Assembly (NCBI RefSeq): GCF_013201825.1 | Contig: NZ_CP053836.1 | Coordinates: 3,100,001-3,164,000, forward strand | DNA from: Halarcobacter ebronensis | GTDB lineage: Bacteria > Campylobacterota > Campylobacteria > Campylobacterales > Arcobacteraceae | Direction: 5' to 3' | Length of the DNA: 64,000 bases | In this document: positions 1,365 through 29,582 of the stretch, piece by piece | Numbering within the stretch: position 1 is the stretch's first letter | Layout: each line of letters opens with the position of its first letter | The notes under the pieces: generated by a model | Databases searched by the model: none | What the model saw: the letters and a program-made list of their open reading frames with translations, nothing else | What the model was told of the DNA's origin: nothing | Made by a program: the position numbers and the translations under genes

Positions 1365-2291
1365 ATGAAATTTGCACAAAATGTTACAGAGTTAATTGGA
1401 AATACACCGCTTGTTAGATTACAAAAAGCAAGTGACAAAACAGGAGCTACAATTTTAGGAAAATGTGAGTTTATGAACCCAACTCACTCAGTTAAAGATA
1501 GAATTGGAACAAATATGATCAAAGCAGCACTTGATAAAGGGCTAATCAATGAAAACACTACAGTAATTGAACCTACAAGTGGAAATACTGGTATTGCATT
1601 AGCTTCTGTTTGTGCAGGACTTGGAATAAAACTTATTCTTACAATGCCTTCATCAATGAGTATTGAAAGAAGAAAACTTTTAAAAGCTTTAGGCGCTGAA
1701 CTTGTATTAACTGAACCTGAAAAAGGTATGAAAGGTGCTATTGACAAAGCAAATGAACTTGCTGATAATACACCAAATTCTTTTATTCCTCAACAGTTTG
1801 CAAATGAAGCGAATCCAGAGATTCACAGAAAAACAACTGCCCAAGAGATTTTAAAAGATACAGATGGAAAAGTTGATATTTTTGTTGCTGCAATTGGAAC
1901 AGGTGGAACAATTACAGGAACTGGTGAAATTTTAAAAGAGCATAATCCAGATATTCAGATTATTGCTGTTGAGCCAGAAGCATCTCCTGTTTTAAGTGGT
2001 GGAAAACCAGGACCACATAGAATTCAAGGTATTGGAGCAGGGTTTGTTCCTGATGTTTTAAATACAAAACTTTTCAGTGAGATTGTAACAGTTAGCAATG
2101 AAGATGCTATTGAGACATCTAAAAACTTGGCAAAAGATGAAGGGCTTTTAGTTGGTATTAGTGCGGGAGCTAATATTTTCGTAGCAGAAAAAATTGCGGC
2201 AAGACCTGAAAACAAAGGTAAAGTTGTTGTTACAATTTTATGTGATACAGGAGAGAGATATCTAAGTTCGGGATTATATGACGATGAGTAA
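1365..2291 (+). CDS. cysK: Cysteine synthase A (O-acetylserine sulfhydrylase)
   Basis: Joins sulfide to O-acetylserine to give cysteine, in the cytoplasm. At 308 residues it has the normal family length. The PLP lysine is K44 in [11 protein letters not shown], followed by the TSGNTG substrate loop, the glycine-rich phosphate-binding segment GTGGTITG, and SAGAN near the C-terminus. A good ribosome site (AAAGGA) precedes the ATG. It sits between the Rrf2 regulator and the DUF2061/cysH genes and is probably co-transcribed with them. In organisms with CymR the same enzyme doubles as a regulatory partner, which may apply here given its neighbour. Confidence 0.95.
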
Positions 2292-12580: not shown

Positions 12581-12606
12581 AAAAAGCAGTATTACTACTG
12601 CTTTTT
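12581..12606 (-). terminator. Intrinsic terminator of the hsp20/small-peptide unit
   Basis: A perfect 11-bp stem, AAAAAGCAGTA/TACTGCTTTTT, with a 4-base loop. On the minus strand the 3' arm runs into a stretch of nine Ts, a strong intrinsic terminator. The stop codon of the small peptide gene at 12605 touches the stem. Confidence 0.85.
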
Positions 12607-12700
12607 ATCTAAATAGATATATAAAACTTACTAAAACTGTAGTAAAATAAATCATTGCAATTATTAAATAATCTTTTTTATACTCTATTAATTTATCCAT
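12605..12700 (-). CDS. 31-residue membrane peptide downstream of hsp20
   Basis: A short gene not called by length-based rules. It has a strong ribosome site (AAGGAG, 5 bases before ATG), a charged N-terminus (EYKKDYLI) and one membrane-spanning helix of about 18 residues, and it ends in a clean terminator. It is 36 bases downstream of hsp20. A second gene at 27507-27608 encodes a peptide matching it at 13 of 20 aligned positions, starting KKDYLI and continuing IYF, TV, S and I at the same spacing. This conservation argues strongly that both are translated. Function is unknown; the position behind a heat-shock gene suggests a role at the membrane under stress. Confidence 0.75.
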   Translation of the reverse strand: MDKLIEYKKDYLIIAMIYFTTVLVSFIYLFR

Positions 12701-12742
12701 TTTTTCTCCTTAAAATAAGAAGGAGAATCATCCTTCTTATTT
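12701..12742 (-). promoter_or_regulatory. Potential two-state hairpin controlling the small peptide
   Basis: In the minus-strand mRNA the segment AAATAAGAAGGA (which contains the hsp20 stop codon) pairs perfectly over 12 bp with TCCTTCTTATTT. The same downstream arm can instead form TTCTCCTT/AAGGAGAA with an 8-base loop, burying the ribosome site of the 31-codon gene. The two pairings exclude each other. A ribosome ending hsp20 would cover the first arm. Structure read by eye; not folded by program. Confidence 0.55.
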
Positions 12743-13150
12743 AATCGCTATTGATTTTTTTGTTTTTGTTTCAGCAAGTTTTGGAATAATAACTTCCAAA
12801 ACACCATCTTCACTTCGTGCTTGAATATTTTCCACATCAACATTTTCAGGAACTGTAAAACTTCTTGAAAATTTACCAAATGATGTTTCTACTTTATAAT
12901 AATCTTCCTCTTTTACCTCATCTTTTGTTTTTCTCTCACCTGAAATTGTTAGGATATTTTTATCAATATCAACACTTATATCATCTTTTTTTACTCCTGG
13001 TAAATCAACATCAATGTGATATGCATTTTCACCTTCTCTTGTATTTACCACGGGAACAAAACCATTTAATCCTTCATCTTTTGGATAGTTATAAAAACTT
13101 TTTTCTAAATCTCTAAATTGTCTAAAAGGGTCAAATTTTGTTATTAACAT
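12737..13150 (-). CDS. Small heat shock protein, Hsp20/alpha-crystallin family
   Basis: An ATP-independent holding chaperone of 137 residues. The alpha-crystallin domain covers about residues 30-125 (YHIDVDLPGVKKDDISVDI, then GERKTKDE, then FGKFSRSFTVPENVD and ARSEDGVLEVIIPK), and the C-terminal IAI is the I-x-I/V motif that docks into neighbouring subunits. The start has an excellent ribosome site, AAGGAGG. Upstream lie a full consensus promoter and a CIRCE-like operator, so repression by HrcA and induction by heat are predicted. A 7-bp hairpin (13173-13193) sits in the 5' leader. A small membrane-peptide gene follows in the same direction. Confidence 0.95.
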   Translation of the reverse strand: MLITKFDPFRQFRDLEKSFYNYPKDEGLNGFVPVVNTREGENAYHIDVDLPGVKKDDISVDIDKNILTISGERKTKDEVKEEDYYKVETSFGKFSRSFTVPENVDVENIQARSEDGVLEVIIPKLAETKTKKSIAIK

Positions 13151-13201: not shown

Positions 13202-13230
13202 ATTATAACAATTTTTTTAGCACTTGTCAA
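13202..13230 (-). promoter_or_regulatory. Consensus sigma-70 promoter of hsp20
   Basis: On the minus strand TTGACA (13225-13230) and TATAAT (13202-13207) are separated by exactly 17 bases, matching the full sigma-70 consensus. Campylobacterotal promoters usually lack a recognisable -35 box, so this one should be unusually strong and in need of repression. Confidence 0.88.
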
Positions 13231-13243
13231 TACTAATTGCTAA
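13217..13243. promoter_or_regulatory. CIRCE-like HrcA operator
   Basis: TTAGCACTT-N9-AATTGCTAA matches the CIRCE consensus TTAGCACTC-N9-GAGTGCTAA at 8 of 9 and 7 of 9 positions, with the exact 9-base spacer. It overlaps the -35 box of the hsp20 promoter, where bound HrcA would block polymerase. Confidence 0.82.
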
Positions 13244-13444: not shown

Positions 13445-16400
13445 ATGGCTCTTAAAGTTGTAATTTCCCATAAAACTGAGTATAAATATAGTAAAAAAGT
13501 TTCAATGTCACCACATATTATAAGATTAAGACCAGCACCCCATAGTAGAACACCAATTGAAGCTTATTCATTAAAAATAAAACCTGAAAATCACTTTATA
13601 AATTGGCAACAAGATCCCTTTGGAAACTACCTTGCAAGACTTGTGTTCCTAGAGAAAACTGATATCTTTAGTGTTGATGTAGAGATAATTGCAGATATGA
13701 TTACCATGAATCCCTTTGATTTTTTTGTGGAAGATGGCTCAAAAGAGTTTCCATTTACCTATAAAAAAGATTTGAAAAAAGAGCTTGCTCCATATTTAGA
13801 AATTGAAGAAACAAGTAAAGAGCTAGAAGAGTTTGTAGATAGTATAAATAAAAGTAAAAAATCAATAATTGATTTTTTGGTTGAAGTGAACCAAAAAATA
13901 CATAATACTCTAAACTATACTGTTAGAATGGAACCTGGAGTTCAAACTCCAAAAGAGACTTTAGATAAAAAACTTGGAAGCTGTAGAGACTTTGCTTGGC
14001 TTTTTGTTCAAGTATTAAGACATCTTGGACTTGCAAGTAGGTTTGTCTCTGGATATTTAGTTCAACTAACAGCAGATGTTAAATCATTAGATGGACCAAG
14101 TGGTCCTGAAAAGGATTTTACAGACCTTCACGCTTGGACTGAAGTTTATGTTCCAGGAGCTGGTTGGATTGGACTTGATAGTACAAGTGGACTTTTTGCA
14201 GGGGAAGGACATATCCCTCTTGCTTGTACTCCAAACTACACTAGTGCCCATGCAATTGAAGGGCTTACAGATGTTTGTGAGACAAAATTTAATTATGAAA
14301 ACAAAGTTACAAGAATTTTTGAATCTCCAAGGGTTACCAAACCCTATAAACAAAAGCAGTGGGAAGATATATATAATTTAGGTTTCAAAGTTGATGAAGA
14401 TTTAACCACCCATGATGTTAGACTTACTATGGGAGGAGAGCCAACTTTTGTCTCTATTGATGATATGGAATCAGCACAATGGAATAATGAAGCCGATGGA
14501 GCACATAAAAGAGAGCTTGCAAATAATCTTTCAAGAAAAATTTTAGATTCAACTACCAATGGTGGACTTCTTCATCATGCACAAGGTAAATGGTATCCAG
14601 GGGAACCTCTTCCTAGATGGCAAACAACTATTTATTGGCGAAAAGATGGAAAACCAGTTTGGAGAAACCCAGAACTTTTAGCAAATATGAATAAGACTTA
14701 CCCTTATAAAACCAAAGATGCGAAAGAGTTTCTTTCAACTTTAGCTCTAGTCTTAGGAGTAAGTGATAAGAATATAGTTCCAGCTTTTGAAGATCCAGTT
14801 TATTACATTATGAAAGAGTTTGAACTTCCCCTTGATATTGACCCAATGAAAGCTAATTTAAAAGATTCTTTAGAGAGAAGAACCATAGCACAAAAACTTC
14901 AACAAGGTTTAAATAGTGAGGTTGGATATGTTCTACCACTTAATTTTGGGAGAACAAAATGGATTACTTCACAATGGGAGTTTAGAAGAGGATATATGTT
15001 CCTTGGTGCAGGGAACTCTCCATTGGGACTTAGACTCCCTTTAGAATCATTAATTGTAAAACCACAAATTGAACTTGAAAAAAGCTTTGAACCAGATCTT
15101 TTTGCTTCATATCCTGCTTTGGGAGATTATATTACAGAAGTTGAGAAAAGAGCTAAAAATATTAATGCCAAAACCACAGAACAAAACTCTTATAGTGTAT
15201 TTGTTAGAACAGCTATTAGTGCAGAGATAAGAGATGAGAAACTTTGTATCTTTTTACCTCCAATAGATAATACAGAGGCTTTTCTTGATTTAATAGCCTC
15301 TATTGAACAAACAGCGCAGATATTAAATTTGGCTGTAATAATTGAAGGGTATGAACCTCCACAAGATAGCAGAACAGATAGAATAAAAGTAACTCCAGAT
15401 CCAGGAGTAATAGAGGTAAATATTCAACCAGCTTCATCTTGGAAAGAGTTAAGTGATAACCTTTTAAAACTATATGAAGATGCAAGGATTTGTAGACTTG
15501 GAACTGAAAAGTTTATGGTTGATGGAAGACACACAGGAACAGGAGGAGGAAATCATGTAACAATTGGTGCAGCAACTCCAAGTGATTCTCCACTTCTTAG
15601 AGATCCAAATCTATTAAGAAGTCTTATAACCTTTTGGCAACACCATCCAGGACTTTCATATCTTTTTAGTGGAGCTTTTATAGGACCAACTTCACAAGCT
15701 CCAAGAGTAGATGAGGGAAGATTAGAGAACCTATATGAGTTGGAGATTGCTTTTTCTCAAATTCCAGAAGATGGTAATATTCCATTTTGGTTAACAGATA
15801 GACTCTTTAGACATATGTTAACAGATATTACAGGCAATACCCATAGAAGTGAGTTTTGTATAGATAAACTCTACTCACCTGATTCAAGTTCTGGAAGACT
15901 TGGTATTTTAGAACTGCGAGCTTTTGATATGCCACCACACTCACAAATGGCACTACTTCAAATGCTTCTTGTGCGTGCCTTAGTTGCTTGTTTTTGGAAA
16001 AATCCATATAAACATAAACTTGTACGTTGGGGAACACGACTTCACGATAAATTTTTGCTTGAACACTATGTAAAAGAGGATATAAAAGAGGTTGTTGAGT
16101 ATCTAAATGAAAATGGTTATGGTTTCAAACTGGATTGGTTTGACCCTTTCTTTGAGTTTAGATTTCCACTTTATGGAATGACAACAATTGAAAATATGCA
16201 TGTGGAGATAAGAGCAGCCATAGAGCCTTGGAATGTTTTAGGGGAGGAAGCAACTTCCCAAGGAACTTCAAGATATGTGGACTCTTCTGTGGAGAGGCTT
16301 CAAATAAAAATTGATAACTTTAATGAAGAGAGATATACCCTTGCTTGTAATGGGATTCAAATACCACTTAGTAAAACAAATATTGAAGGGGAATATGTAA

Positions 16401-16810
16401 ATGGGGTTAGATATAAAGCTTGGCAACCTTGGTCAGCACTTCATCCAACAATTGGTGTTGACACTCCTCTAACTTTTGATATTATTGATAATTGGAATGA
16501 GCGTTCAATAGGAGGATTCAACTACTTTGTTTCCCATCCAGGAGGAAGAAGTTATGATACTTTTCCAGTAAACTCTTATGAAGCAGAATCAAGAAGAATA
16601 AACAGATATTGGGATTTTAACCATAGCCAAGGGGAAGTTGTAAATTATGATCCAATAATAAATTCTAGCAAAAATGCAATCTTTGCAAATGGTGCAAAAA
16701 GGGCAGTTGTGGAGAAAAAAGGTTTAGAAAAGCTATATTTTCATAAAATGTCAAAAAATAAAGAGTTCCCACACACTTTAGACTTAAGACAAAGATGGAC
16801 AAGAAATTAG
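13445..16810 (+). CDS. Transglutaminase-like domain fused to DUF2126
   Basis: A 1121-residue two-domain protein. Residues 1-300 are a bacterial transglutaminase-like domain with its N-terminal extension and a complete catalytic triad: C180 (GSCRDFAW), H229 (LHAWTEVYVPGAGW) and D245. The rest, from about residue 320 (LTMGGEPTFVS) to the end, is DUF2126, of unknown fold and activity; conserved-looking blocks are DGRHTGTGGGNHVTIG, HPGLSYLFSGAFIGPTSQAP and LELRAFDMPPHSQMALLQ. Comparative work on ATP-grasp amidoligases places this pair with circularly permuted ATP-grasp and alpha-E proteins in predicted peptide-synthesis operons. The ATP-grasp gene starts immediately after the stop codon. Cytoplasmic: no signal peptide seen. 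Confidence 0.9.
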   Translation: MALKVVISHKTEYKYSKKVSMSPHIIRLRPAPHSRTPIEAYSLKIKPENHFINWQQDPFGNYLARLVFLEKTDIFSVDVEIIADMITMNPFDFFVEDGSKEFPFTYKKDLKKELAPYLEIEETSKELEEFVDSINKSKKSIIDFLVEVNQKIHNTLNYTVRMEPGVQTPKETLDKKLGSCRDFAWLFVQVLRHLGLASRFVSGYLVQLTADVKSLDGPSGPEKDFTDLHAWTEVYVPGAGWIGLDSTSGLFAGEGHIPLACTPNYTSAHAIEGLTDVCETKFNYENKVTRIFESPRVTKPYKQKQWEDIYNLGFKVDEDLTTHDVRLTMGGEPTFVSIDDMESAQWNNEADGAHKRELANNLSRKILDSTTNGGLLHHAQGKWYPGEPLPRWQTTIYWRKDGKPVWRNPELLANMNKTYPYKTKDAKEFLSTLALVLGVSDKNIVPAFEDPVYYIMKEFELPLDIDPMKANLKDSLERRTIAQKLQQGLNSEVGYVLPLNFGRTKWITSQWEFRRGYMFLGAGNSPLGLRLPLESLIVKPQIELEKSFEPDLFASYPALGDYITEVEKRAKNINAKTTEQNSYSVFVRTAISAEIRDEKLCIFLPPIDNTEAFLDLIASIEQTAQILNLAVIIEGYEPPQDSRTDRIKVTPDPGVIEVNIQPASSWKELSDNLLKLYEDARICRLGTEKFMVDGRHTGTGGGNHVTIGAATPSDSPLLRDPNLLRSLITFWQHHPGLSYLFSGAFIGPTSQAPRVDEGRLENLYELEIAFSQIPEDGNIPFWLTDRLFRHMLTDITGNTHRSEFCIDKLYSPDSSSGRLGILELRAFDMPPHSQMALLQMLLVRALVACFWKNPYKHKLVRWGTRLHDKFLLEHYVKEDIKEVVEYLNENGYGFKLDWFDPFFEFRFPLYGMTTIENMHVEIRAAIEPWNVLGEEATSQGTSRYVDSSVERLQIKIDNFNEERYTLACNGIQIPLSKTNIEGEYVNGVRYKAWQPWSALHPTIGVDTPLTFDIIDNWNERSIGGFNYFVSHPGGRSYDTFPVNSYEAESRRINRYWDFNHSQGEVVNYDPIINSSKNAIFANGAKRAVVEKKGLEKLYFHKMSKNKEFPHTLDLRQRWTRN

Positions 16811-19303
16811 ATGGATATATTTGAAAGTTGTAAACTTGACTCATCATTTGATGAGATGTTTGACAAAAGTTGCAATGTAAAAGAGCATTGGAATGAGATA
16901 AAAGAATCCCTAGAAAAATCTGGGATGGAAAAGCTTGAACAAAAGCAAACGGAGATTGATTGGAGATTAGAGGATAACGGAGTTACTTATAATGTCTATA
17001 ATGACCCTGAAGGGACAAATAGAAGATGGAATCTTGATCCAATTCCTTTTGTTTTAAATGAAAAAGAGTGGGAAGAGGTTACGAAAGGTTTACAGCAAAG
17101 AGCAAAACTTTTAAACCTGATTTTCAGAGATTTATACACAGAACAAAGATTGATAAAAGAGGGGATTATTCCAGCAGAGATTATCTTTGCCCATAAAAGT
17201 TTTTTACCTGAACTCTTTAACTTTAAAAACAAAGATTACTACACAATGCGATTTTATGCAGCTGACATAAGCAGAGGTCCAGATGGAAAATTTTGGGTTA
17301 TAAATGATAGAACCCAGTCTCCATCTGGACTTGGGTATGCAATTGAGAATCGTCTTACAATGAACTCTTCCCTCTCTGATTTATACTCAAATATCAAGTT
17401 TAAAAAGATTGCAGGCTTTTTAGAAGGGTATAAAAATATGCTTTTAAGTACTGCAAAAAATAGAAGTGAAGATCCATTAATAGTACTTTTAACCCCAGGT
17501 CCTCACAATGAGACCTATTTTGAGCACTCATACCTAAGCTCTTTTTTTAATCTTACTTTAGTTCAAGGGGAAGATCTATTAACAAAAAATAATCAACTTT
17601 GGCTAAAAACGCTCAGTGGCTTAAAAAAAGTTGACACTGTTTTAAGAAGAGTTGACTCTAAATATTGTGACCCGTTAGAGTTAGAAAACAGCTCTCATCT
17701 TGGGGTTGCAGGATTAATAAATGTTTTAAGAAATGACCATTTATCAATGATAAATCCAATAGGAATTGGTATTTTAGAGAATGTTGGACTTAACCCTTTT
17801 ATGAAAAACATTGCAAAATTTTTCCTAAATGAGGATTTAATACTTCCTCAAATTGCAACTTGGTGGTGTGGACAAAAACATGAACTTGAATTTGTTATTG
17901 AAAACATTGATAATCTTATTATTAAAAAAATTGACAAAACCGATAGAATAGAGGTTCATTTTGGAAACAAACTAAGCTTTGAAGAGAAAAATATCTTAAT
18001 AGACAAAATCTTATCTACACCTTCATATTATGTTGGACAAGAGATTATTGATTTTTCAACTGTTCCCTCTTATGTTGGTAACAATATTGAACCAAGAAAT
18101 GCTGTAATTAGATCATTTTCATTCCTTAATGAGGATAAATATGAAGTTATGCCAAGTGGTTTGGTGAGAGTATCAAAAGAGAAAGATTCCCTTGTTGTTT
18201 CAAATCAAAGGGGAGGAACAAGTAAAGATTTATGGATATTAGGAGAGGATAATAGTGAGAAGTTTAGTGCTATTTCTAGCCATAGAGATTTCTTAGATAC
18301 CAGATTGGGAAATATCTCTACAAAAAGAGCAGAAAACCTCTTTTGGCTTGGAAGATATCTAAGCAGAGCTGTTATTACAACAAGGATGTTAAGATTTAAT
18401 CTAAAAGCAGTTTTAAATCTAAACAGATATGAAGATAGAAATATTTCAAAAAGCAGTGCGGAGATTTTAAATAGATGTTTAACCCATCTTACAATGACCT
18501 ATCCTGGCTTTTTAGAAGAAGAAAAAGAGGTTAAACCTATTGTTGAAATAACCTCTGTAATACAAGATGTTACAAGAGTAGGAACTCTTAGTTTTACCCT
18601 TTCAATGTTAAGCAATATAAATGCAAATATCAAAAATCTTCTAACTATTGATGCTTGGAGAGTTTATGATAGAATGAAAAAGAGATGGTACTCATATAAT
18701 AAAAGAAAGATTATCTCAAACAGAGAACATATAGGGGAACTTGATAGACTTCTTATCTATCTTATGGCATATAAAGAGCTTATTGATGAGAGTATCTCAA
18801 ATGATCAAGGGTTAATTCTTTATGATATTGGCTGTAAACTGGAGATTTCACTACTTCTTATCTCTAAAATGAGATCTTTATTAACAACAAAACTTGACAA
18901 ACTTCTTGAGTATGATATTCTTGATTCAATGTTAAATACCTATGAGAGTTATAATGCCTATAGAGCACACTACAAATCAACCTTAGAGTTAGAGAATGTA
19001 GTTGAATTTTTACTCTTTAACACCAAATATCAAAAATCCTTGATATTTATAATTGAAGAACTTTTAAGAAGTCTAAAAGAGTTACCAAATAGTTCTCACT
19101 CTTCCCACTTAAATAATTTTGAAGAGCCTGTATTTAAAGTCTATACTATGCTTAAACTTACAAATGCTAAAAGATTATTAAGAACAAAAGAGAAAGATTT
19201 TGTCTATTTAACCCTTGATGGTTTTCTTTCAGAGATTTCTGAGCTATTAGCCCAAACCTCTGAAGAGATTACAAAAACATATTTTGCACACTATAACGAG
19301 TAA
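16811..19303 (+). CDS. Circularly permuted ATP-grasp ligase fused to alpha-E domain
   Basis: An 830-residue fusion. Residues 1 to about 495 form a circularly permuted ATP-grasp, with the signature NDRTQSPSGLGYAIENR and the late IEPRNAVIR and SNQRGGTSKDLW segments. From about residue 500 (ISTKRAENLFWLGRYLSRA) to the end is the all-helical alpha-E domain. Such ligases are predicted to form amide or peptide bonds; alpha-E is a presumed partner of unknown activity. In many genomes the two are separate genes, and in this window a split pair exists at 22073-24107. The gene starts directly after the DUF2126 stop, and the third gene starts 3 bases after its own stop, so the three form one operon. Confidence 0.9.
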   Translation: MDIFESCKLDSSFDEMFDKSCNVKEHWNEIKESLEKSGMEKLEQKQTEIDWRLEDNGVTYNVYNDPEGTNRRWNLDPIPFVLNEKEWEEVTKGLQQRAKLLNLIFRDLYTEQRLIKEGIIPAEIIFAHKSFLPELFNFKNKDYYTMRFYAADISRGPDGKFWVINDRTQSPSGLGYAIENRLTMNSSLSDLYSNIKFKKIAGFLEGYKNMLLSTAKNRSEDPLIVLLTPGPHNETYFEHSYLSSFFNLTLVQGEDLLTKNNQLWLKTLSGLKKVDTVLRRVDSKYCDPLELENSSHLGVAGLINVLRNDHLSMINPIGIGILENVGLNPFMKNIAKFFLNEDLILPQIATWWCGQKHELEFVIENIDNLIIKKIDKTDRIEVHFGNKLSFEEKNILIDKILSTPSYYVGQEIIDFSTVPSYVGNNIEPRNAVIRSFSFLNEDKYEVMPSGLVRVSKEKDSLVVSNQRGGTSKDLWILGEDNSEKFSAISSHRDFLDTRLGNISTKRAENLFWLGRYLSRAVITTRMLRFNLKAVLNLNRYEDRNISKSSAEILNRCLTHLTMTYPGFLEEEKEVKPIVEITSVIQDVTRVGTLSFTLSMLSNINANIKNLLTIDAWRVYDRMKKRWYSYNKRKIISNREHIGELDRLLIYLMAYKELIDESISNDQGLILYDIGCKLEISLLLISKMRSLLTTKLDKLLEYDILDSMLNTYESYNAYRAHYKSTLELENVVEFLLFNTKYQKSLIFIIEELLRSLKELPNSSHSSHLNNFEEPVFKVYTMLKLTNAKRLLRTKEKDFVYLTLDGFLSEISELLAQTSEEITKTYFAHYNE

Positions 19304-19306
19304 AAA

Positions 19307-20200
19307 ATGGTATATGAAGTATTTCACGAAACAAAATTCCACTATCCTGCCCTTGTAACCTTTAGTCACAATATAGCTAGGCTTACTCCTAAAAGTTGTC
19401 ATAGACAAAAACTTTTAGAACACACCCTTGAAATTACACCAAAACCCTTTGAAACAACTCTTTTTGAAGATTATTTTGGAAATCAAAATACCTTTATGTT
19501 AATAAGAGAAGCCCATAAGAGTCTAAGTGTAATCTCAAAATCAAAAGTTGAACTAATTGAAGATAGAATCTTTGAGTACAATGAAAAAGCAAAACAGACA
19601 ACCATTACCTATGAACAAATGAGAGAGAGATTAGAAGCTCATAAAAGTACAGATGCTTTGGCTTTTCAATACCTTTTTGAAACTGACTCAATTGCTGTGC
19701 CATCAAAGGAGATAAAAGAGTATGTTTTACAATCTTTTAGTCCAAATAGAACTCTTTTTGAAGCTACAAATGAGTTTATGCAAAGAATCTTCACAGATTT
19801 TAAATTTGTCTCAGGATTTACAGATATTACAACTCCTATTGAAGATATTTTTAGAGAAAAAAAAGGGGTTTGCCAAGATTTTGCACAGTTTGCAATTGCA
19901 GCACTTAGAAGTATAGGTATTCCAACTAGATATATGAGTGGATATATTCAAACATACCCCAAAGAGGGTGAGAAAAAACTCTTTGGTTCAGATGCTTCCC
20001 ATGCGTGGTTTTCTATCTATATTCCAGATTTTGGTTGGGTTGATTTTGATCCAACTAATAATAAACTACCAAATGAAGAGTATGTTATTTTAGGATTTGG
20101 AAGGGATTATATGGATATCTCTCCTTTAAAAGGTGTAGTAAAAAGTAGTGGAGAGAGTAAACTAAGTGTACGGGTAAATGTGCTAAAGTTGGAAGTTTAA
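19307..20200 (+). CDS. Transglutaminase-like protease/ligase
   Basis: A 297-residue protein of the transglutaminase-like superfamily with the bacterial N-terminal domain (residues 1-95). The catalytic triad is visible: C189 (KGVCQDFAQ), H232 (ASHAWFSIYIPDFGW) and D248 in FDPTNN. It is the last gene of the plus-strand arm of the cluster. Its stop codon ends at 20200 and the stop codon of the opposing arm begins at 20201, so the two operons abut with no spacer. Members of this group linked to ATP-grasp ligases are predicted to cleave or transfer peptide bonds made by those ligases. The substrate is unknown. Confidence 0.88.
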   Translation: MVYEVFHETKFHYPALVTFSHNIARLTPKSCHRQKLLEHTLEITPKPFETTLFEDYFGNQNTFMLIREAHKSLSVISKSKVELIEDRIFEYNEKAKQTTITYEQMRERLEAHKSTDALAFQYLFETDSIAVPSKEIKEYVLQSFSPNRTLFEATNEFMQRIFTDFKFVSGFTDITTPIEDIFREKKGVCQDFAQFAIAALRSIGIPTRYMSGYIQTYPKEGEKKLFGSDASHAWFSIYIPDFGWVDFDPTNNKLPNEEYVILGFGRDYMDISPLKGVVKSSGESKLSVRVNVLKLEV

Positions 20201-21133
20201 TTATCCAACTTTAGCTACCCTAAAAGCAACAGCATTTTCATATATAAGAGAACTGTTGTAGTTACAAGTAATCATCCCATCACAAGGTGATTTGAACTCA
20301 TAAATCACATTTCCCTCTAATGAATCAATTATCTCTCCCATTATTTGCTCTTTTACAACATAACTTCCAGGGAACTCTTTTGGTATAAAAATACCACTTT
20401 TTAAACTTTTAATTACCCTTATCTCTTCTGTTTTAATAACCGTTGAATCATAGGCATTAAAAATTGAAAAATCGATGATTTCATTTTTATTCATAAATCT
20501 TAAAATAGCTTGATTTATCTGGCTTGAGATTTTATTATCAATATGACTTAAAGTGGGACAAACGATAGAATAAGCCTTTGTTCCCCAAAGTTGCCAATTA
20601 TATTGTAAAGTCACACTATCTATTGATTTCATATTTTTATGATGAATAAATTTAAAACCAAACTTTTTCGCACCCTCTAAATCTTCAAATTCACTCTCTA
20701 AAAGTTTAATGTAAGGAATACAATTTACAGGGTCTTGTCTTTTCTCTAAAATCACACCAAAAGTGTATCCATTTAAAACATCAAAAACTTTTTTTGCAAT
20801 CCGTTGGGTTGTTTCACCCAAACCATATCCAGGGAACATCATATTAATATCAGTATTATCCAAAGGCCAAAATCTTTTCCCTGAATTAAAGGCATAATGA
20901 TTAACTGAAGGGATAATTAAAACATCACCTTTTATCCTTTTTGCATCAATTTTGTTTTTAAAAAAATCTACAAGTTTTGAAGCACAATATAAAGGGAGAA
21001 TTCCCTCCCCTTCCATTGCTCCAACAATGGCAATCTTAGGAGCTTTTTTACTCTTTCCTTTAAATAAAAAACCTTCAATAATAAGGGGTTCTCTACTTAA
21101 AGATTCAATTTTTAAAATCTCAATTCTCTTCAC
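20201..21133 (-). CDS. M14/aspartoacylase-like protein lacking metal ligands
   Basis: A protein of the succinylglutamate desuccinylase/aspartoacylase branch of M14 peptidases, paralogous to the gene just upstream. The active site looks dead. The first zinc motif (HGDE in the paralogue) reads MEGE, the second zinc His (DIHSSN) is replaced by LEKR, and the catalytic Glu region (VEMG) reads CPTLSH. The C-terminal beta domain (FKSPCDGMITCNYNS) is kept. The GTG at 21133 is preferred as start because GGAG stands 6 bases before it, giving a 14-base overlap with the upstream gene. An ATG at 21172 would overlap by 53 bases and lacks a ribosome site. Likely a pseudoenzyme or binding subunit. Confidence 0.82.
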   Translation of the reverse strand: MKRIEILKIESLSREPLIIEGFLFKGKSKKAPKIAIVGAMEGEGILPLYCASKLVDFFKNKIDAKRIKGDVLIIPSVNHYAFNSGKRFWPLDNTDINMMFPGYGLGETTQRIAKKVFDVLNGYTFGVILEKRQDPVNCIPYIKLLESEFEDLEGAKKFGFKFIHHKNMKSIDSVTLQYNWQLWGTKAYSIVCPTLSHIDNKISSQINQAILRFMNKNEIIDFSIFNAYDSTVIKTEEIRVIKSLKSGIFIPKEFPGSYVVKEQIMGEIIDSLEGNVIYEFKSPCDGMITCNYNSSLIYENAVAFRVAKVG

Positions 21134-22076
21134 TTTTTTCTCCAAAGATTCTTGCAAGTAGTGAGCCTTCATAAACTACTGGATACTCCCTTAGGGTAAA
21201 TAAAATTCCACAATTTGGTGCAAAAAGTTCACTTAAAATCTCCCCTGTTAAAGGGGATACAATCTCACCAATCTTATCCCCTTTTTTTATAATTTCACAG
21301 TGATCAAGGGAAGGGACAAAAAGTCCACTTGTTGGAGCATTTATATAATATACATCCCCTATTTCAGAGCTAAAAGGTTCCCTTACTTCAAATTCCTGTT
21401 TTGTATTAATCATTTTTTGTTTTTTTAGAAGATTTAAAATTCCTATTAGAAGTTGCTCTCCATACTCCTTTGTAAGCCTCATACCAACTCCCATCTCAAC
21501 AACTAAAGTATTTGTTCCTAAAGAGTTTAAAGTATGGGAAAATGTTGCTTCTAAAACAGTTACCGCATCATGAATCCAAATAAAATCACAATTTAACTCT
21601 TTTGCTAAATGAAGTGTATTTTTAGAGAACTCTTTATTTATTCTAATTTGAGGTATCTCCCTTAAAAAAATATTACTTGAGTGGATATCAATTGCAATAT
21701 CACTACCTTTTATATCCTCAGTTAAAGCGTGAACAACTTGTCCAGGGAGAAAATCATTTACACTTCCAGGGAAAGCTCTGTTTAGATCCACATTGTAGTT
21801 AGGGAAACTTCTTGTAATAGTATCAATTCCTAAAGGATTTGCAGCAGGATAGATATCCACAATTGCATTTAAAGTATCTATATTTTTATTTAACCATTGG
21901 GCCAATAGATATATTACCAATTGTCCTTCCAATTCATCCCCATGGATTCCACTTACTATACTGATTCTTTTTAGTTTTTTACCTTTTTTAGTTTTTTTGG
22001 GCTCAAATCTAGTTCTTTTTATTGTAAGTTTTTCACCAACAGGAAGTTGTGATGTAAAAATTTCTGTTGTTTTCAT
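21120..22076 (-). CDS. M14-family zinc carboxypeptidase/aspartoacylase-like enzyme
   Basis: A 318-residue member of the succinylglutamate desuccinylase/aspartoacylase branch. Zinc ligands are intact: H and E in SGIHGDELEG, and the second His in AIDIHSSN; the catalytic Glu lies in LVVEMGVGM. The C-terminal domain (SPLTGEILSELFAPNCG) resembles lipoyl-like barrels found in this branch. It overlaps the alpha-E gene upstream by 4 bases and its degenerate paralogue downstream. In this cluster it is a plausible hydrolase for products of the ATP-grasp ligases, or for their removal from a protein; this is inferred from context. Confidence 0.85.
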   Translation of the reverse strand: MKTTEIFTSQLPVGEKLTIKRTRFEPKKTKKGKKLKRISIVSGIHGDELEGQLVIYLLAQWLNKNIDTLNAIVDIYPAANPLGIDTITRSFPNYNVDLNRAFPGSVNDFLPGQVVHALTEDIKGSDIAIDIHSSNIFLREIPQIRINKEFSKNTLHLAKELNCDFIWIHDAVTVLEATFSHTLNSLGTNTLVVEMGVGMRLTKEYGEQLLIGILNLLKKQKMINTKQEFEVREPFSSEIGDVYYINAPTSGLFVPSLDHCEIIKKGDKIGEIVSPLTGEILSELFAPNCGILFTLREYPVVYEGSLLARIFGEKSEEN

Positions 22077-22741
22077 TGATCCTCAACAATTATTTTATTT
22101 ATCTTTGCATTAATAGAATTTAAAATTGTATCATAAGATTCTCTCTCCCTATGGGGAACAAAAACAGCATTTGGATTTAATCGCAATACTATAGTATCAA
22201 TCTCATTCATAATAAGCAGCGAAAATCCTTTGTCTCTTTTTAGTCGTAGATGTATATCAACTTTTTCAACAAGTTTTCCAAGTCTAATAAAATAATCACT
22301 TGTATTTCTCTCTTGTTTTCTTGAAAGTTCTCCCCATATCTCACTTATTCTTGATGAGATTTTTTCCACGAAAGAACAATCAATATTAAAATGATCATTT
22401 TGAGCCTGCTTTAAAAGTTCTGAAAGCTCAATAATAGAACCAAATGCATTTGCATCAATGTAAGCCCTTGTAATTATTGCATTTTCTCTTATATAGTTTA
22501 TGATTGCATAGATATTTGATTCATGTTCACCAAAACAAGCCTCATATAAAAAATCATTTGCATTTTTATATTTTATCTCTATTTCAAGGCGTTTAAAAAG
22601 TTTTTTACCTGCATTTTTATCAACATCAATTATCTCATCAAAGGTTTCAACAATCTCAATGAGCATTGCTTCAAGTCGTTCCAAATATCTTCCAAGCCAA
22701 TATAAATTACTTGCCATATTTGCAGTTAATAATTGATCCAT
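22073..22741 (-). CDS. Alpha-E domain protein (stand-alone)
   Basis: A 222-residue all-helical protein of the alpha-E family. The N-terminal ANMASNLYWLGRYLERLE matches the start of the alpha-E half of the fusion at 16811-19303 (RAENLFWLGRYLSRA). Further helices contain FYEACFG-like and EIWGELSRKQERN segments. The biochemical role is unknown; it is almost always encoded beside a circularly permuted ATP-grasp protein and is expected to work with it. Here the ATP-grasp gene is 1 base upstream, and the M14 gene overlaps the end by 4 bases. Confidence 0.86.
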   Translation of the reverse strand: MDQLLTANMASNLYWLGRYLERLEAMLIEIVETFDEIIDVDKNAGKKLFKRLEIEIKYKNANDFLYEACFGEHESNIYAIINYIRENAIITRAYIDANAFGSIIELSELLKQAQNDHFNIDCSFVEKISSRISEIWGELSRKQERNTSDYFIRLGKLVEKVDIHLRLKRDKGFSLLIMNEIDTIVLRLNPNAVFVPHRERESYDTILNSINAKINKIIVEDQ

Positions 22742-22742
22742 T

Positions 22743-24107
22743 TTATTCTCCTACAACCCATGTATCTTTAAAACCACCACCTTGAGAGGAGTTAACTAAA
22801 TAGTTACCTGCTTCAACGGCATATCTTGTTAAACCGCAGTTCCAAACTTTTGGTTTTTCTGCCATTATTACATAGGCCCTAAAATCTGCTTTTCTAGGAA
22901 CTATCTCATCATTTATAAAACAATTCTCATCATAAAATTCAACCAACTCTTGGGCTATAAATCTCCTTGGATTTGCTTCAATAATTGTTTTTAAATCTTG
23001 TAATTGGATTTTTGACATAGAGTGTCCAAACATCACTCCATATCCACCTGCTTCTGCAACATCTTTTATTACAAGTTTTTCAATATTATCATAGATATAT
23101 TTTTTATCTTTTTCAAAATATGGTAAATAGGTTGGAGCATTGTATAATATAGGCTCCTCATTTAGATAATATTTAATCATCTTAGGAACAAAATAATAGA
23201 TACCTTTATCATCTGCAACACCATTTCCTGGTGCATTTAAAATTGCCACATTACCTGCTAAATAAACCTCCATAATATCTGGCACGCCTATTAAACTCTC
23301 TTTATTGAAAAACTTTGGATCTAAAAATTCATCATCAAGTCTTCTATAAACTGCCCCTACTCTAATCTTTTTCCCATTATAATTTTTAAAATATAAAACT
23401 TTATTTTCAACCAAAAGTTCATTATTTCTTACAAGTTTTGAACCTGTTATCTCTGCTAAATAGGCATGTTCATAATATGCTGAATTAAATCTTCCTGGAG
23501 TTAAAACTACATTTATCCCCTCATTGTTTACATAATCCATAGATTCTTTTAAAATATCTGCATAGTCTTTTATGGGTTTTATATCCATCTTTTCAAAAAA
23601 ATCGGGGTAAATTTTTCTAAAGGTATTTCTTATAGATAAGGGATAACTAGCTCCACTTGGTACCCTTAAATTATCCTCTAAAATAACCCATTCATTTGTT
23701 ACTGTATCTTTTACTAAATCTATACCATTTATATGGGTTCTTAATTTTTTAGGAGGTGAAAATCCATCAAGTTCTTTTAAAAAGCCTTTTGCTTTATAAA
23801 TAAACTCTTCTGGAATAATTTTTTCTTTTATTATTCTTTTTTTTGTGTATAGATCTTCTAAAAACAGATTTAATGCTATTATTCTTTGACTAAGACCCCT
23901 TTCAATCTTATCAAATTCTTTAGTTGTCATTATTCTTGGGATCACATCAAAAGGTAAGGATCTTTCAATAAAATTCCCATCTTTATATAGATTAAAGTTG
24001 ATTGCAAACTTATCCATATATTTTTTAAACTCTTTTACTTTTTGCCTATCTTGGTTTGAAAATATCTCCCAAAATATTTCCGTAGCTACATTTTTTGTAT
24101 CTAACAA
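22743..24107 (-). CDS. Circularly permuted ATP-grasp ligase (stand-alone)
   Basis: A 454-residue ATP-grasp protein of the permuted type that heads the minus-strand arm. The signature VILEDNLRVPSGASYPLSIR is clear, as are the C-terminal VPRKADFRAYVI and SSQGGGFKDTWVV, which correspond to segments in the fused paralogue at 16811. The start is TTG, with a perfect AGGAGG ribosome site 6 bases upstream. It is probably an amide- or peptide-forming ligase acting with the alpha-E protein encoded next. Substrate and product are unknown. No Anbu-type peptidase gene, a frequent companion of this pair, is present in the window. Confidence 0.9.
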   Translation of the reverse strand: MLDTKNVATEIFWEIFSNQDRQKVKEFKKYMDKFAINFNLYKDGNFIERSLPFDVIPRIMTTKEFDKIERGLSQRIIALNLFLEDLYTKKRIIKEKIIPEEFIYKAKGFLKELDGFSPPKKLRTHINGIDLVKDTVTNEWVILEDNLRVPSGASYPLSIRNTFRKIYPDFFEKMDIKPIKDYADILKESMDYVNNEGINVVLTPGRFNSAYYEHAYLAEITGSKLVRNNELLVENKVLYFKNYNGKKIRVGAVYRRLDDEFLDPKFFNKESLIGVPDIMEVYLAGNVAILNAPGNGVADDKGIYYFVPKMIKYYLNEEPILYNAPTYLPYFEKDKKYIYDNIEKLVIKDVAEAGGYGVMFGHSMSKIQLQDLKTIIEANPRRFIAQELVEFYDENCFINDEIVPRKADFRAYVIMAEKPKVWNCGLTRYAVEAGNYLVNSSQGGGFKDTWVVGE

Positions 24108-27506: not shown

Positions 27507-27608
27507 TTAATTAGTAATGATTATATAACTTGTAACAACAGTAATAAAATATATTCCAATTACTATTAAATAATCTTTTTTTGTTGTGTTTATCTCTTTA
27601 ATTTCCAT
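27507..27608 (-). CDS. 33-residue membrane peptide downstream of typA
   Basis: A short gene with ribosome site AAGGAG 7 bases before ATG. The product has a charged N-terminus (NTTKKDYLI) and one hydrophobic helix. It aligns with the peptide at 12605-12700 over 20 residues with 13 identities: KKDYLI, then IYF, TV, S and I at fixed spacing. The two copies also share AAGGAG followed by a run of As before the start, and each has an upstream hairpin that can hide that site. A longer in-frame reading from 27725 would run through the typA terminator and lacks a ribosome site, so the short start is preferred. Function is unknown. Confidence 0.75.
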   Translation of the reverse strand: MEIKEINTTKKDYLIVIGIYFITVVTSYIIITN

Positions 27609-27645
27609 TTTTTTCTCCTTGTTGTAGGAGAAAAAATCTCCTACA
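27609..27645 (-). promoter_or_regulatory. Potential two-state hairpin upstream of the typA-linked peptide
   Basis: In the minus-strand mRNA TGTAGGAGA pairs with TCTCCTACA (9 bp, 5-base loop). Alternatively TTTTTTCTCCT pairs with AGGAGAAAAAA over 11 bp with a 6-base loop, covering the ribosome site of the 33-codon gene. The layout copies the one at 12701-12742 although the sequences differ. A 14-residue leader peptide (27641-27685) could end in the first arm. Confidence 0.55.
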
Positions 27646-27685
27646 TTTTTTTGTTTATCCTCACAAAAATGTCGTCGGACCTCAA
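27641..27685 (-). CDS. Possible leader peptide before the 33-residue gene
   Basis: A TTG codon 5 bases after AAGGA opens a frame of 14 residues, MRSDDIFVRINKKM, whose TAG stop lies inside the first arm of the hairpin at 27609-27645. Translation would therefore change which hairpin forms. This rests on spacing alone, and the candidate could be chance. Confidence 0.22.
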   Translation of the reverse strand: MRSDDIFVRINKKM

Positions 27686-27710: not shown

Positions 27711-27740
27711 AAAGGGGAAGAGCAAAAGCTCTTCCCCTTT
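27711..27740 (-). terminator. Intrinsic terminator of typA
   Basis: A perfect 13-bp stem, AAAGGGGAAGAGC/GCTCTTCCCCTTT, with an AAAA loop, followed on the minus strand by TTTTATTTC. It lies 24 bases after the typA stop codon. Confidence 0.9.
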
Positions 27741-27764: not shown

Positions 27765-29582
27765 CTAGTCAGCAAATTTTGCCTTCTTAGCAGTTCTTTT
27801 CCTAGCTGTAGGGTCAAGCTCTCTCTTTCTAATTCTTACACTCTTAGGTGTAACTTCGACCAGTTCATCCTCTTCGATCCACTCTAAAGCATTCTCTAAA
27901 GACATCACTCTTGGTGGAATCAACTTAATTGCATCATCACTTCCCGAAGCCCTAACGTTCGTTAGCTGCTTTCCTTTAATTGGGTTAACATCTAAGTCAT
28001 TTGACTTCGCGTGTTCTCCAATTACCATACCTACGTAGACCTTATCTTGAGGCTTGATATACATGATTCCTCTCTCTTGTAGGTTAAAGATTGAGTAACC
28101 TAACGCCTCTCCCGATTCCATGGATACTAATGCACCATTTTTTCTACTTTCAACTGTACCCGAGTACGGTCTAAACTCTAAAAAGGAGTGGTTCATAATA
28201 CCCTCTCCCTTAGTATCCGTTAAGAACTCTGTTCTTATACCAATAAGTCCCCTTGCCGGAATCTCAAACTCTAACCTTGTAAAGCCTGCTCCCATAGGTA
28301 CCATATTGGTCATATTGGCTTTTTTCTTTCCAAGCTTTTCTATAATAGTTCCTGAATACTCAGTTGGAGTATCTATTACAAGATGTTCAAATGGCTCCAT
28401 TGTTACACCATTTTCAACTTTTGTAATAACTTCTGGTCTTCCAATAGAGAACTCAAAACCTTCTCTTCTCATATTTTCTGCCAAAATAGTAATTTGAAGC
28501 TCACCTCTTCCGTTAACTTTAAATTTTCCCTCACCAACTTGCGAGTAGTTCATCGCAATATTAGTGTTCATTTCAGCTTTTAATCTCTCATCAACTTTGT
28601 TTGAGGTAACAAACTTTCCTTCAGTTCCAGCTAATGGAGAATCATTAACTGCAAATGTTACAGACAGTGTTGGTTCTTCAATATGCATTGGATCCAACGG
28701 CATTGGGTTTGCTGGATCACAGAGTGAATCTCCAACATCAATAGTTTCAAATCCTGCAACTGCAACAATATCACCTGCACCTGCCTCTTTTACTTCAATT
28801 CTATCAAGACCTTTAAATCCAATAAGTTTAGTTACTCTTCCTTTTACTCTTTCACCATTTGCTTTACATAAAAGTACTGTTTCACCTTGAGAGATTTTCC
28901 CATTAAAGATTCTTGCAATACCAATTTTTCCAATGAAGTTATCGTAATCAAGTGTAAATACTTGTAGCTGTAATCCCGCCTCATCACTTCCGTTTGGTTT
29001 TGGAACCTCTTTTAAGATTGTTTGGAATAATGGTTGTAAATCTTTCTTTTCATCTTCAAGATTATAGATTGAATAACCATCTCTTGCTGCTGCATATATT
29101 ACAGGGAACTCAAGCTGTTCATCAGTTGCATCCATTTGTGCGAACAGGTCAAACACTTCATCAACAACTCTATCTGGTTCAGCTGCAGGTTTATCGATTT
29201 TATTAACAACAACGATTGGTCTGTGACCTAATGATAGTGCTTTTTTAACAACGAATTTTGTTTGAGGCATAACTCCCTCTTGTGCATCCACAAGAAGTAA
29301 AACTGAGTCAACCATTTTTAAAACCCTCTCAACTTCTCCACCAAAATCGGCGTGTCCTGGAGTGTCAATGATGTTAATTCTTACACCTTCATAATCAATA
29401 GCTGTATTTTTAGAAAGAATAGTAATACCTCTCTCTTTTTCGATATCATTACTATCCATAACTCTTTCATCAACATGAGTATGCGCTGCAAAAGTCCCTG
29501 ATTGCTTTAATAGCTCATCAACTAATGTTGTTTTACCATGGTCAACGTGCGCTATTACCGCAATATTTCTAATATCTTTCAT
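27765..29582 (-). CDS. typA: Ribosome-binding GTPase TypA/BipA
   Basis: A translational GTPase of 605 residues, full length. It binds ribosomes and supports assembly and growth under stress such as low temperature. P-loop [44 protein letters not shown] and VVNKIDKP are all present. The C-terminal region specific to TypA follows, with [19 protein letters not shown] and [16 protein letters not shown]. The C-terminal tail is rich in Lys and Arg. It is transcribed alone with a strong terminator; a small membrane-peptide gene follows on the same strand. Long open frames on the opposite strand (for example 28120-28890) are shadows. Confidence 0.97.

Follow-up and report, generated by a model that had tools for sequence, protein, structure and literature searches.

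Two short genes in the window (the whole 64,000-nucleotide stretch of the Halarcobacter ebronensis genome analysed here), pepH behind hsp20 and pepT behind typA, are real members of a family of single-helix membrane peptides confined to the Arcobacteraceae. This conclusion is well supported by sequence comparison, and the family is apparently undescribed in the open-licence literature. The most complete account of the data, which is probably correct though well short of certain, is that these are 24- to 39-residue single-pass inner-membrane peptides, type-I-toxin-like or regulatory, with a two-state mRNA leader that gates their translation. The genes and the RNA anatomy are well supported by comparison of relatives; from these we infer the direction of switching, the signal and the action of the peptide. 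The leader is best read, from its sequence, as a translational attenuator.

The peptides and their genomic settings

A sequence-only reading of the window had proposed two related short membrane peptides, and both ORFs were recovered where it placed them (Table 1). Their products are MDKLIEYKKDYLIIAMIYFTTVLVSFIYLFR (31 aa, pepH) and MEIKEINTTKKDYLIVIGIYFITVVTSYIIITN (33 aa, pepT). BLASTP gave the same 13/20 identities that had been reported, gap-free, with the shared pattern KKDYLI..IYF.TV..S.I. With each peptide as query, the other was the sole further match at E < 0.01 in the 3.17-Mb genome (E 0.0024 and 0.0017). A single hydrophobic stretch is present in each peptide (19-residue Kyte-Doolittle mean 2.36-2.37), in agreement with the proposed single helix, and the domain content of the upstream genes bears out the placement behind hsp20 and typA. 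In the window, the start of pepH follows the end of hsp20 by about 37 nt, and pepT starts 156 nt after the end of typA, with a strong intrinsic terminator in the gap.

Table 1. Features of the two peptide loci (positions are those of the window)
Feature	Position	Strand	Remarks	Basis
pepH	12605-12700	minus	31-residue single-helix peptide gene, 3' of hsp20	ORF, orthologues
pepT	27507-27608	minus	33-residue single-helix peptide gene, 3' of typA	ORF, orthologues, dN/dS
Arm A, pepH leader	12731-12742	minus	AAATAAGAAGGA	
Arm B, pepH leader	12713-12727	minus	12713-12724 pairs with A; UUCUCCUU at 12720-12727 pairs with SD	
Arm C, pepH leader	12701-12711	minus	SD and spacer, AAGGAGAAAAA	
Arm A, pepT leader	27637-27645	minus	TGTAGGAGA	
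Arm B, pepT leader	27623-27631	minus	TCTCCTACA; with preceding U-run (27632-27636) also pairs with C	
Arm C, pepT leader	27609-27619	minus	SD and spacer, AGGAGAAAAAA	
uORF of pepT	27641-27685	minus	14 codons; TTG start, SD AAGGA; stop UAG in pepT arm A	
hsp20	12737-13150	minus	small heat-shock protein; cistron upstream of pepH	PF00011, E 2.4e-25
hsp20 stop codon	12737-12739	minus	inside arm A of pepH leader	
hsp20-pepH promoter	13202-13243	minus	TTGACA-17-TATAAT	12/12 hexamer match
CIRCE-like operator	13217-13243	minus	overlaps hsp20-pepH promoter	inverted repeat
Intrinsic terminator	12581-12606	minus	overlaps pepH stop codon; end of hsp20-pepH operon	
typA/bipA	27765-29582	minus	upstream neighbour of pepT	PF00009, PF21018 (BipA_C)
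Intrinsic terminator of typA	27711-27740	minus	between typA and pepT unit	

The claim that these are real proteins held up. Short homologous frames, sought in sister genomes, were present behind typA and behind hsp20, and the synonymous bias that had been predicted was found. Since many relatives have orthologues in these two positions, differing mainly at third codon positions, the likeness of pepH and pepT is more than chance. Judged from its codon changes, pepT is under purifying selection (dN/dS 0.24 in close pairs and 0.32 overall), with 143, 72 and 257 changes at codon positions 1, 2 and 3 in close pairs and 3451, 2234 and 5290 overall. For pepH dN/dS was 0.45, with saturation. Short ORFs are common in A+T-rich DNA, and the frames could in principle have arisen by chance within conserved intergenic RNA, but the excess of synonymous changes, a length that varies mostly at the N-terminus and the conservation of two loci over many genera make this extremely improbable.

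The peptides have one hydrophobic segment. Five residues (the start Met, a D, a Y and two I) are invariant or nearly so, and a polar helix face is conserved (D, Y/E/Q/H, T, S/T), its Y/E/Q/H position being polar. The suggestion that no described family has this pattern is in line with searches of Pfam, NCBIfam, PHROG and PDB (the last with the family profile, E ≤ 1), which gave no family match and, among described toxin families, no sequence match.

Profile searches at E ≤ 0.02 gave matches in 57/104 Arcobacteraceae genomes and 16/20 genera, the weakest of which are probably chance; in about a dozen genera E was near or below 1e-9. Among some 300 genomes of other Campylobacterales families there was no convincing match, the one marginal match lying inside a long unrelated frame. 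Within the genus, a pepT relative was present in 15/16 genomes (weakest E 2e-4). Among the named relatives found were Arcobacter sp. EP1 and Arcobacter sp. SZUA-449.

The inspected regions show two stable settings, with pepT 150-660 nt behind typA and pepH 11-43 nt behind hsp20. Orthologues of pepH occur behind hsp20 in 11 further genomes, and also in L129, L130, L133, L134 and L138. Both settings are found together in L077 (genome G049), in the order typA-pepT-hsp20-pepH, which may be the ancestral neighbourhood; the window thus holds one member of each sub-family. The two genes had been called paralogues and their relatedness stands, but they are not a species-specific pair: they represent two old sub-families inherited separately. 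A lineage-specific duplication giving pepH, considered because no other pepH occurs in the genus, was dropped when the family-wide search revealed pepH behind hsp20 in other genera. In five loci (L003, L005, L074, L084 and L101) typA and pepT are separated by another gene, and the pepT unit with its uORF is still kept.

The hsp20-pepH pair of the window resembles an operon, to judge from the perfect sigma-70 hexamers over a CIRCE-like operator in front of it and the terminator over the pepH stop codon. In five other loci (L008, L009, L011, L012 and L038) a CIRCE-like operator with embedded TTGACA lies directly 3' of the pepT stop codon, so that pepT is squeezed between typA and a likely hsp20 heat-shock promoter. 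The region between the two peptide genes in the window is flanked by two clusters (13445-24107) whose translations read as transglutaminase-like, circularly permuted ATP-grasp/alpha-E-like and peptidase-M14-like genes.

A membrane helix of KDL/KTD type was also seen at the C-terminus of a NifQ-family protein (PF04891). It is fused in L135 and L139, and in L128, L131 and L132 it is encoded in a separate or overlapping frame directly behind the NifQ-family gene; in L131 a perfect CUCCUUAAA/UUUAAGGAG hairpin lies over the SD. Similarity of this helix to pepT is weak (E 0.001-0.02), with one example giving no pairwise BLASTP match. The window genome has nifQ, without such a tail.

Anatomy and conservation of the leader

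An AAGGAG with a run of A precedes the ATG of both pepH and pepT, as had been noted, but it is more than the ribosome site for which it was taken: it forms one arm of an RNA leader that is conserved and has two states. The order is upstream stop codon, arm A, anti-SD arm B, arm C (SD and spacer) and ATG, and in pepT it is conserved across genera. The aligned upstream regions of pepT have the consensus TAGGAGA, a short loop, a U-run with UCUCCUA, 3 to 7 nt, AAGGAG with an A-run, and ATG. Pairing of A with B is predicted to leave the SD open and pairing of B with C to close it, and B cannot pair both ways at once. Predicted energies were -9.7 to -18.2 kcal/mol for A:B and -10.2 to -17.4 kcal/mol for B:C, nearly equal in most pepT loci.

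Comparison of loci showed that B:C pairing in pepT is kept by paired changes beyond the SD. Double changes were found in at least three genera, for example in L099 (AUAAAAAA with UUUUUUAU), L068 (AAAACA with UGUUUU), L064 and L081 (UA with UA), and L084 to L087. Outside the SD, where the spacer could drift freely, 16/17 of its non-A bases were matched in B, against 49% in shuffles (0/5000), and 11/15 non-U bases of arm B were matched in C, against 13% (0/5000); these shuffle counts are inflated by related genomes and are not true probabilities. Mean B:C energy in pepT was -12.56 kcal/mol, compared with -10.89 kcal/mol when C was swapped between loci (0/20000 permutations). The corresponding means for pepH were -8.74 and -6.85 kcal/mol (45/20000 permutations). 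Because the A:B stem hardly varies among pepT leaders, it shows only slight covariation.

The device was detected in 34 to 35 of 38 pepT leaders, in 3 to 7 of 12 pepH leaders and in none of 156 other genes of the same loci, the upper counts (35/38 and 7/12) coming from a relaxed detector. In four of the 12 pepH loci the spacer measures 11 nt and the hairpin is missing, and B:C comprises only 6-10 bp in the rest; the evidence for the pepH leader is weaker than that for pepT. When a covariance model built from pepT leaders only was run against the genome, its two best hits were the leaders of the window (E 5.5e-11 and 0.001), and it gave noise beyond them when the same leader was sought on other genes of this genome. 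Rfam covariance models had no relevant match in six loci.

In L117 (genome G080, about 2165-2208, minus strand) a similar hairpin and then an SD (AATAAGAGAA..TTCTCTTATT, AAAGGGAAATAATG) follow a stop codon between genes that resemble a section of a nap operon, and this may be the device attached to a different gene. On the plus strand of the window, the pepT leader hairpin (27623-27645) is followed by seven T and resembles the intrinsic terminator of an antisense transcript.

A uORF with start codon and SD ending at arm A was found in 31/36 pepT loci, compared with 2.6% of dinucleotide shuffles; in the remaining five the version present does not satisfy the strict rule. Across relatives the pepT uORF has 10-21 codons, and in pepH leaders the hsp20 stop codon occupies the position of the uORF stop. 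The distance between the stop codon and B, counted between their first bases, is mostly 12-17 nt for pepT uORFs (mode 15, and 20 in three) and 13-18 nt for hsp20 stops (mode 15). When a stop codon occupies the A site, the ribosome shields about 12 nt, beginning with that codon. A terminating ribosome would therefore cover A and leave B, just outside the expected footprint, free. Amino-acid constraint on the uORF peptide as a conserved product was not supported (dN/dS 0.24 to 2.6 by group); in view of this lack of consistent constraint, the position of the ribosome is a likelier signal than the leader peptide.

Proposed switching and rival explanations

With A blocked, the predicted probability of a paired SD in the window's leaders rose from 0.14 to 0.99 for pepT and from 0.09 to 1.00 for pepH (37°C). 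In most pepT leaders the free RNA is predicted to be closed without a ribosome (mean probability 0.82), so the switch would have to be kinetic. As a translational attenuator, the leader would most likely work as follows. A ribosome at the upstream stop codon (of the uORF, or of hsp20 for pepH) would cover A and the loop, leaving B free to pair with C and hide the SD, and normal traffic to that stop would keep the peptide gene closed. Early stalling in the uORF, or absence of ribosomes, would allow A:B to fold first and leave the SD open, and the peptide would be made in response to disturbed translation or proteostasis. It would insert in the membrane with its K/N-rich N-terminus inside and a helix carrying the polar D-(Y/E/Q/H)-T-S/T face. 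Its action there as a type-I-toxin-like or regulatory membrane peptide is the least certain step.

Two other roles for the RNA were set aside. An RNA thermometer is not favoured, as predicted pairing of the pepT SD changes only slightly, from 0.87 to 0.74, between 15 and 50°C, and a transcription terminator in the sense direction would have a U tail, present in 0/36 pepT leaders.

The peptides may instead simply serve a membrane complex, as small subunits or in its assembly, with a leader that merely tunes a low, constant level. The conserved polar helix face would suit a protein partner, and the fusion of a weakly similar helix to the C-terminus of a NifQ-like protein in some relatives points the same way. 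This is unlikely, however, as the neighbours typA and hsp20 encode no membrane complex and so elaborate a gate would be unusual for a housekeeping subunit. Rather unlikely, too, is that A:B is an ordinary ribosome termination structure (RTS) insulating the next gene from re-initiation, with A merely SD-like and pairing of B with the SD incidental. RTSs sit just after stop codons and are enriched where the next gene is at least 25 nt away and depleted at shorter spacing (PMC7518266), a rule that pepH fits, having the hairpin with spacers of 36-43 nt and none with spacers of about 11 nt. What an RTS leaves unexplained is why B in pepT is always an anti-SD, why B tracks spacer changes beyond the SD and why 0/156 other genes have the arrangement.

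A type I toxin-antitoxin system is also conceivable, in which the primary transcript would hide the SD of the toxin, pepT, and the antitoxin would be an antisense RNA ending at the A:B hairpin. Length, single helix and SD sequestration recall AapA and other type I toxins (PMC6733600, PMC8309996), and a T-rich tail in the antisense direction adjoins the hairpin in 34/36 pepT loci, compared with 25% of control positions. Against this, no antisense promoter is conserved beyond what the D-Y codons force (an apparently conserved antisense -10 box proved to be a consequence of those codons), the antisense T tail is absent at the pepH of the window, and a conserved C-terminal basic pair like that reported for AapA1, LdrD and Fst is missing. 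By itself such a system also leaves the uORF and the B:C covariation unexplained, and it is quite improbable. The translational attenuator remains the best reading of the leader. It is possible, though doubtful, that the attenuator is a portable stop-codon occupancy switch, an A-B-C element of some 40 nt that after any stop codon would report the arrival of ribosomes, here driving stress-linked membrane peptides encoded beside the translational GTPase TypA/BipA and Hsp20.

Comparison with known systems

The leader apparently represents a compact, conserved translational switch whose kinds of regulation are already known. In translational attenuators of the ermC type, a leader ORF and exclusive RNA pairings control the SD. 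The polarity proposed here is the opposite, since a ribosome that covers A close to the leader stop would shut the gene instead of opening it.

Occlusion of the SD is a hallmark of type I toxins (PMC6733600). With AapA/IsoA, AapA being from Helicobacter of the same phylum, and with type I membrane toxins, the present peptides share a single helix of about 30 residues, an anti-SD a few nucleotides from the SD, and exclusive hairpins (PMC6733600, PMC8309996). Unlike AapA/IsoA, pepT has a uORF and a competing A arm, lacks a conserved basic C-terminus, and has an antisense RNA that is only putative. With RTSs (PMC7518266) the leader shares a stable hairpin that immediately follows a stop codon and a spacer of at least 25 nt to the next gene; the difference is that in pepT and pepH the 3' arm doubles as an anti-SD and covaries with the SD and spacer that follow it, giving two exclusive structures.

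By analogy, the closest precedent is toiL-topAI of Escherichia coli, in which antibiotics that stall ribosomes in a uORF open the ribosome-binding site of a toxin gene, itself part of a toxin-antitoxin system (PMC12121999). Common to both are a short uORF, and RNA structure at the downstream ribosome-binding site that would be set by ribosome position and would hide the site under normal translation. In contrast to toiL-topAI, the whole device here occupies about 40 nt, its critical position is the stop codon of the uORF, and its product is an unrelated membrane peptide of 24-39 residues. The same layout also stands behind a full-length gene, hsp20, and this would let the sensing step be separated from any special leader-peptide sequence.
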